Assembly (NCBI RefSeq): GCF_900115785.1
Contig: NZ_FOYS01000001.1
Span: 424,769 to 488,768, forward strand
DNA from: Halogeometricum limi
Lineage (GTDB): Archaea; Halobacteriota; Halobacteria; Halobacteriales; Haloferacaceae
Length of the DNA: 64,000 nt
Direction of reading: 5' to 3'
Position numbers and translations under genes: made by a program
Notes under the pieces: generated by a model
Told to the model about the DNA's origin: nothing
The model's database searches: none
The model's input: the letters and a program-made list of their open reading frames with translations, nothing else
Part shown: one piece after another, positions 57,992 to 59,714 of the stretch
How positions within the stretch are numbered: position 1 is the stretch's first letter
Layout of the letters: the number at the start of each line of letters is the position of its first letter

Positions 57992-58071
57992 GACGCGCCA
58001 GCGACGCCGCTCTCGGTACGGTGTCTCTCCCGCACCGGCGAGACGCCGGACAGATTTGCAATCGACGAAGG

Positions 58072-58079
58072 CTTATAAC
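58072..58079 (+). promoter_or_regulatory. TATA box of the ACT-hom operon
   Basis: The sequence cttataac is a good TATA box. It places transcription start at about 58100-58103, which is exactly the ATG of the leader ORF at 58103. Confidence 0.6.
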
Positions 58080-58102
58080 GCGCGGAACGAGTGTGAGGTA
58101 GT

Positions 58103-58207
58103 ATGCTGACGGGGTCATACCGCCCGGCACGCATCGGCACGAAGCCACACAGCGACCGCTTCGAGCCGACAACAGGGACAGCGCGTGCCACGGAGGTGGC
58201 GCGATGA
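58103..58207 (+). CDS. Candidate leader peptide of the ACT-hom operon (34 codons)
   Basis: A leaderless ATG at the expected transcription start opens a 34-codon frame beginning MLTGSYRPARIGTK. Six residues are Thr, three of them encoded by the rare codon ACA. Its TGA overlaps the ATG of the ACT gene (ATGA). The SD of the ACT gene, ggaggt (58192-58197), lies within its last codons. Translation of this ORF should therefore control initiation downstream. Evidence is positional only. Confidence 0.5.
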   Translation: MLTGSYRPARIGTKPHSDRFEPTTGTARATEVAR

Positions 58208-58758
58208 CCGAGACCGAAGCCGTCCCCGAGACGGACGGCGGCGAGCAGCCGAAGCCGCACACGATTCGGCTCGAACTCGCCGACGAACCCGGTCAACTGT
58301 TGGACGCGCTCCGCCCCATCGCCGAGAACGGCGGGAACCTCCTGTCGATATTCCACGAACGGGGCAACCTCACGCCGCGGGGTCGCATCCCCGTCGAGGT
58401 GGATTTAGAGTGTCTCCCCGACCGGTTCGACGCCATCGTCGACGCTCTGCGCGCGGAGGGCGTGAACGTCATCCAGGCTGGTGCCGAACACTACGGCGAG
58501 ACGGTGACCGTCCTCCTGGTCGGCCACCTCGTCGACAGCGACCTCTCGGACACGCTCCGCCGCATCGAGCAGTGTTCGTCGGCGTCGCTGTCGGACATCT
58601 CGCTGAGCGCCCCCGAGGGCCGAGACGACGTCTCCAGCGCGAGTCTCCGATTGGCGACGTACACCGGGCGGACGGAAGACGCGCTCGAAGTCGTCCGGAA
58701 GGTGGCCCGCGAGAAGGACCTGCACGTCATCGAGCCGTTGACGGAGGTGAGCCAATGA
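58204..58758 (+). CDS. ACT-domain amino-acid-binding regulatory protein
   Basis: This 184-residue protein has two tandem ACT-like ferredoxin folds: TIRLELADEPGQLLDALRPI (about 20-95) and VTVLLVGHLVDSDLSDTLRRI (about 100-180). The LADEPGQLL motif is the usual ligand loop. It lies directly before homoserine dehydrogenase, overlapping by four bases, and that enzyme lacks its own ACT domain. This suggests a detached allosteric subunit, binding threonine or a related amino acid. It is preceded by a leader ORF. Confidence 0.85.
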   Translation: MTETEAVPETDGGEQPKPHTIRLELADEPGQLLDALRPIAENGGNLLSIFHERGNLTPRGRIPVEVDLECLPDRFDAIVDALRAEGVNVIQAGAEHYGETVTVLLVGHLVDSDLSDTLRRIEQCSSASLSDISLSAPEGRDDVSSASLRLATYTGRTEDALEVVRKVAREKDLHVIEPLTEVSQ

Positions 58759-59714
58759 GCGACGGCAAGCGACTCGCCGTCCTCGGTGCGGGCGCGGTCG
58801 GCGGGTCCGTCGTCGAACTCGCCGCGGAGTACGGCCATACCGTCACGGCGTTCGCCGACTCCGCTTCGGCCGTCGTCGACGCCGACGGCATCGACACCGC
58901 GGCGGCCCTCGGGTCGAAGGCGGAGACGGGACGCGTCGGCACCGCGGACCCCGATGCGGCACTCGACGCCGACTACGACGTGCTGGTGGAGGCGACGCCG
59001 ACGACGCTCGATGACGCGGAACCGGGATTCTCGCACGTGCGAGACGCCCTGGAACGTGACCGCCACGTCGTGCTGGCGAACAAGGGACCGGTCGCCGAAC
59101 GCTACGCGGACCTGATGGCACTCGAACGAGAGAGCGCGGGCGACGTGCGGTTCGAGGCCACCGTCGGCGGCGCGATACCCGTGCTCTCGACCATCGAAGA
59201 CCTCTCGCCCGCGCACGTCACCGCCGCGCGCGGCGTCCTCAATGGGACGGCGAACTTCATCCTCTCGCGGATGGCTGCGGAGGGACTCGGCTACGAACAC
59301 GTCCTGGCCGAGGCGCAGGACCTGGGCGTCGCGGAAGCCGACCCCTCCTTCGACGTGGACGGCACCGACGCCGCGCTGAAGTGCGTCATCCTCTCGAACG
59401 TCCTCGCGGACGGCGACCGCGAGTACACGCTGGCGGACGCCGACGTGGAGGGAATCAAGAACGTTCCCGGGAGCGCCTTGGAACTCGCCGCGGAGGACGG
59501 GCAGACGATTCGACTCATCGGCGAGGCGACGCCGGACGGGGCGCGCGTGAGTCCGCGCCTCGTCTCACAGAACGCTGCGCTCGCCGTGACGGGCACTCGA
59601 AACATCGTTCAACTGGAGTCTGAGCACGCCGGGCAACTCAACATCAGCGGTCGCGGCGCGGGCGGCCCGGAGACGGCGTCGGCCGTGTTGGCCGACGTCG
59701 GCCGCCTCGACTGA
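58755..59714 (+). CDS. hom: Homoserine dehydrogenase
   Basis: This enzyme reduces aspartate semialdehyde to homoserine with NAD(P)H, on the path to Thr, Ile and Met. It has 319 residues, starting with the Rossmann motif [16 protein letters not shown]. The active-site segments [43 protein letters not shown] and [15 protein letters not shown], with the two catalytic lysines, are present. There is no C-terminal ACT domain; the preceding gene encodes one separately. Confidence 0.95.

Follow-up and report, generated by a model that had tools for sequence, protein, structure and literature searches.

The window analysed here is a stretch of 64,000 nt from Halogeometricum limi, which carries on its forward (+) strand a gene for an ACT-domain protein of 184 residues (58204–58758; Pfam PF01842) followed by a gene for homoserine dehydrogenase (hom, 58755–59714; Pfam PF00742, E 4e-49, and the homoserine dehydrogenase family of NCBIfam). 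The NCBIfam matches of the ACT protein were weak, falling below cut-off, and were to the C-terminal ACT domain of threonine ammonia-lyase. As read from the sequence, the end of the ACT gene and the beginning of hom share an ATGA. Isoleucine is made from threonine, so that both amino acids are products of the hom pathway. Upstream of the ACT gene and on the same strand lies a short ORF (58103–58207) of 34 codons plus TGA, with the product MLTGSYRPARIGTKPHSDRFEPTTGTARATEVAR, hereafter the leader or relay ORF. Its ATG is located 30 nt downstream of the sequence TTATA (58073–58077), the TATA box of a promoter block (58034–58079) that is strongly conserved within the genus in an alignment of its members, and from this spacing the mRNA probably begins at the ATG itself, i.e. 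it is leaderless. There are six threonine codons in the leader, namely ACG at codons 3, 13 and 30 and ACA at codons 23, 24 and 26, the last three falling within the sequence ACA ACA GGG ACA (codons 23–26, 58169–58180; Thr-Thr-Gly-Thr), which we propose to be a regulatory codon cluster. The Shine–Dalgarno (SD) sequence of the ACT gene, GGAGGT (58193–58198), is contained within leader codons 31–32, and the leader TGA (58205–58207) overlaps the ACT ATG (58204) as a further ATGA (58204–58207), a putative site of termination–reinitiation. An earlier note on this DNA had described an ORF that starts where the TATA box predicts, has six Thr codons, embeds the SD and ends in the ATGA overlap, and each of these features was found again when the sequence was re-read, the leaderless start being a prediction. 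When the window was scanned, 58103–58207 was the only leaderless ORF with a stop overlapping a gene start under the scan criteria used. The ACT frame is open across the entire leader (58102–58204), and gene callers could therefore set the ACT start too far 5′ and hide the leader.

Both the ORF and the promoter block are present in all four genus relatives. A homologous leader was found in nearly all Haloferacaceae ACT-hom loci sampled and also in some Halobacteriaceae loci (Halobacterium and Halarchaeum). Most loci with a leader have TTATA precisely at position −30 relative to its ATG, and the offset between the SD and the ACT start is constant in most lineages. The leader set comprised 84 distinct sequences, two of which (L076 and L144) are frame-broken; the other 82 are in frame and end exactly on the ACT start despite having 17 different lengths, from 34 to 60 codons counted with the stop. 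Apart from the two frame-broken cases, the stop and start meet as ATGA in 48 leaders, as GTGA in 22 and as TGA/ATG in 12, so that the geometries are all −4 or 0 nt, with the −4 overlap in 70 of the 84; a TAG/ATG junction was seen in two further lineages, L046 and L130. If 16 of 18 indels are counted as multiples of three, where one third would be expected, P is ~2e-6; the total of 18 was itself estimated from how many different leader lengths occur. The retention of frame through many indels fits a translated, coupled ORF. The earlier note had itself proposed looking in relatives for the ORF, the Thr codons and the overlap, and all three proved to be conserved there. Conservation of frame, together with the position of hom downstream, suggests that this is a short translated ORF ahead of a biosynthetic operon, as would be required of a leader-peptide attenuator, and its overlap with or very short spacing from the ACT gene is that of a pair coupled by termination–reinitiation (TeRe).

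Threonine is the commonest residue of the leaders, accounting for 15.9% of residues compared with 5.8% in the genes of the window. The codon ACA, which the earlier note had taken to be rare, does indeed occur at only 1.6 per 1000 in 40 window genes, but reaches 48 per 1000 in the 82 distinct leaders, a 30-fold difference; in the two alternative reading frames the leaders have it at 11 per 1000 (by frame, 4.84% in the leader frame against 1.07% and 1.10%). With weighting for kinship the values were 54.7 per 1000 for leaders, 1.6 for genes and 14.2 for the other frames, and among rare codons in the weighted leaders ACA was far ahead of the next, CCA, at 16.2. ACA is present at codons 23–26 in 80 of the 84 distinct leaders, and across 43 lineages threonine peaks at codons 3, 5, 13 and 23–26. 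In four lineages (Haloplanus, L061, L046 and L130) the Thr cluster is accompanied by rare isoleucine codons, AUU or AUC; the cluster reads AUU ACA AUU AUU ACG in Haloplanus, ACA ACA AUU AUU in one Halobacterium, AUU ACA AUC ACA in L046 and ACA GGG AUU AUC in L130. Ile codons beside Thr codons are what would be expected of a sensor of the Thr/Ile pathway, and the leaders thus have the excess of codons for a pathway product (Thr codons, ACA, Ile codons) that is looked for in an attenuator. The cluster is not invariant. In Halorubrum the ACA pair has shrunk to a single ACA with a nearby Thr or Pro codon, and in a Halobellus-like clade of eight sequences (L090, L108, L112–L115, L117 and L118) the leader and its GTGA overlap are kept and the ACA/Thr cluster is gone. 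Several of the Halobellus-like genomes without the cluster have two or three ACT-hom copies.

The mRNA of the leader can form a hairpin, P1 (58134–58169; UCGGC-A-CGAAGC / GCUUCG-A-GCCGA), which in most lineages extends as far as the ACA codons; this arrangement was absent from the earlier note. In 21 leaders placed in one hand-chosen register, 83% of P1 cells were paired compared with 31–40% when the register was slid, and cells in which both positions had changed numbered 8 against 3.0 in shuffles (0/500). In Haloferax, Haloplanus and Halorubrum P1 occurs in shifted registers, assessed by folding only. Across 40 lineages the 47 nt 5′ of the first ACA exceeded dinucleotide shuffles in stability (mean z −1.40, t −7.0), an excess that is absent in some lineages; P1 of the window had a z of −3.6.

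Other short leaders were also found. Within the genus, the lysC (aspartokinase) gene is preceded by a relay ORF, MPQHQSQSLRANRPGVGPCE (L202:1445–1507, + strand, with equivalents in L201 and L203–L205), which is leaderless with TTATA at −30, has a TAG overlapping the GTG start and has kept its frame through a 6-nt indel (a deletion). A relay ORF before ilvB in the genus (M..RTRDRRP..; L160:1316–1396, L161:1361–1429 and L164:1334–1408 on the + strand, and on the opposite strand in L162 and L163) contains the SD, shares an ATGA with the start of ilvB and has kept its frame through several indels in five genomes; it has at most one Ile, Leu or Val codon and a conserved ACA. Both ORFs are Thr-poor and lack codons for the products of their own pathways. 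No comparable leader was found before trpC, hisG, thrB or thrC in the genus. A second ACT-hom copy in L006–L008, with about 60% identity, is preceded by a separate leader of 12 codons, MNDGSTRWCTDE (around 1440–1480), which overlaps the ACT start as ATGAGTGA. In Natrialbaceae (L028–L069) many loci have a conserved ORF of 23 residues, MGVDRTEGGRGDWGSSNPGKDHL, 240–340 nt before the ACT match, and a different short leader resembling MTTCGRPQAGGDGDG overlaps the ACT start.

On balance we favour the reading that the leader is a regulatory relay ORF in which the decoding of Thr and Ile codons gates ACT-hom translation by termination–reinitiation, that is, a form of leader-peptide control. Ribosomes would enter at the 5′ AUG of the leaderless mRNA, melt hairpin P1 and then decode the rare codons for Thr, or for both Thr and Ile in some lineages, at positions 23–26; they would terminate at the UGA overlapping the ACT start and reinitiate there with the assistance of the SD, and hom would in turn be coupled to ACT through the second ATGA. 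Work on Haloferax volcanii found strict coupling in nine of nine pairs of overlapping or adjacent genes; genes overlapping as ATGA depended strictly on translation of the upstream gene, and the SD reportedly did not function when initiation was de novo (Huber et al., 2019; PMC6728339). Strict coupling and an inactive SD make the leader the likely point of ribosome entry for ACT and then hom, and by analogy with those pairs (PMC6728339) translation of ACT is likely to depend on translation of the leader. If ribosomes do enter there, translation of ACT-hom would be gated by the charging state of the tRNA decoding ACA (and AUU), and the products of the pathway would feed back via the leader peptide. 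Stalling, the sensing of Thr and Ile and the direction of the response are all steps that we infer. We lean towards higher ACT-hom expression on Thr shortage, on physiological grounds and from bacterial precedent; P1, which a ribosome stalled at ACA would keep from folding, is then a candidate switch, and it is the only conserved one. Simple coupling or gating predicts the opposite, lower hom when Thr is short, and the sequence is compatible with either sign.

The earlier note had suggested a translational attenuator, in which a leader of Thr codons hides or exposes the SD; the position of the leader ribosome would then control access to the SD when ACT is initiated de novo. The SD of the window can indeed pair in a hairpin, GCCAC-GGAG-GUGGC, but this hairpin is not conserved, nor is SD sequestration when judged by covariation, opening energies and simulated stalls; the 47 nt 3′ of the first ACA, a stretch that takes in the SD in most lineages, were close to shuffles over 40 lineages (mean z −0.25, t −1.6), and simulated ribosome stalls did not consistently open the SD. 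Neither a conserved structure sequestering the SD nor conserved alternative structures switching a terminator or the SD were found, P1 being conserved but located 5′ of the codons. Since, in addition, the Haloferax work reports that the SD does not serve de novo initiation (PMC6728339), we regard this part of the earlier proposal as very unlikely and have abandoned it. An antisequestor was also considered, in which the 5′ arm of P1 (GGCACG) would pair with a CGUGCC preceding the SD. The match is perfect in the window and in some relatives, but this pairing, judged by eye, was rejected, as it would span the stalled ribosome. A frameshift at hungry codons into the ACT frame was likewise rejected as not general, the 5′ open frame being too short in relatives such as L071. 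It is scarcely credible that the ORF encodes a small functional protein: its frame is conserved and appears to be translated, but variable leader sites in four genera have no third-codon-position bias, lengths range over 34–60 codons and there is little conservation of the peptide between genera.

The main rival to control by Thr/Ile decoding is a generic coupling leader: a leaderless mini-ORF would bring ribosomes to the gene through termination–reinitiation, and ACA would be a fixed slow spot spacing them, with no sensing of amino acids. The similarly built relay ORFs before lysC and ilvB, which have no product codons, the Halobellus-like clade without the ACA cluster and an ACA-to-start distance that is often 32–35 nt, approximately one ribosome, are all in its favour. 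However, this distance is 47 to 107 nt in Halorubrum, ACA is well ahead of all other rare codons, CCA coming next, and the additions in four lineages are codons for Ile, a product of the same pathway; we consider this explanation unlikely, although it deserves serious weight. Next to it stands a structured RNA element, in which P1 and the adjoining unpaired ACA sequence would form a binding site for a protein or nuclease, or a processing site, and the ORF would be open only for coupling. Conservation of leader nucleotides is not protein-like, and the conserved hairpin P1 stops at the ACA codons, as such an element would have it. Against this, the cluster moves by whole codons relative to P1 (GGG is inserted in L073–L077 and ATT in Haloplanus), extra ACA codons have been gained in frame in L013, L021, L050, L085 and L147, neighbouring replacements are Ile codons, and Rfam covariance models gave no match to the leader at E values up to 5, so that an RNA element seems improbable. 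The Ile codons are poorly explained by either generic coupling or an RNA motif.

Leader-peptide attenuation is a textbook bacterial mechanism. The thrL leader of the Escherichia coli thr operon attenuator is likewise a short, Thr-rich ORF before homoserine dehydrogenase, and like it the haloarchaeal leader has Ile codons mixed with Thr codons in some lineages. However, the sequences are unrelated, the haloarchaeal mRNA is probably leaderless, the leader stop overlaps the next start, no terminator or U-run was seen, and the hairpin lies before the codons rather than after them. Erm-type translational attenuators share the upstream leader ORF and the proposal of ribosome pausing as the signal, but in these a stalled leader ribosome frees the SD, whereas the haloarchaeal leader has no conserved structure that sequesters the SD; nascent-peptide stalling of the Erm kind is also unlikely because the leader peptide is not conserved. 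The coupled ATGA pairs of Haloferax volcanii (Huber et al., 2019; PMC6728339) share the −4 overlap and the SD inside the upstream ORF, but consist of ordinary genes, whereas the upstream ORF here is a leader of 34–60 codons with a conserved Thr cluster. Small ORFs before normal-sized genes have likewise been described in long 5′-UTRs of this species by dRNA-seq (PMC4983044); those encode 15–31 aa and are described by their low isoelectric point, and in the text of that report we found no Thr leader, conservation test or link to amino acids. That haloarchaea control amino-acid synthesis by a leader peptide, in which ribosomes on a leaderless mRNA stall at rare codons for Thr or Ile and the output is termination–reinitiation in place of a terminator or SD switch, is a proposal to which we give slightly less than an even chance. 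To our knowledge, attenuation with such an output is known in neither bacteria nor archaea. The literature searched reported no such leader for an archaeal biosynthetic operon, an absence that is not proof of novelty.

A conserved leader of Thr and Ile codons extends through most of one haloarchaeal family and into a second. As members of Haloferax are easy to manipulate, the question of a leader peptide is directly testable. Judging from the relay ORFs of lysC and ilvB, haloarchaea may make broader use of leaderless mini-ORFs that pass ribosomes on to a coupled gene.
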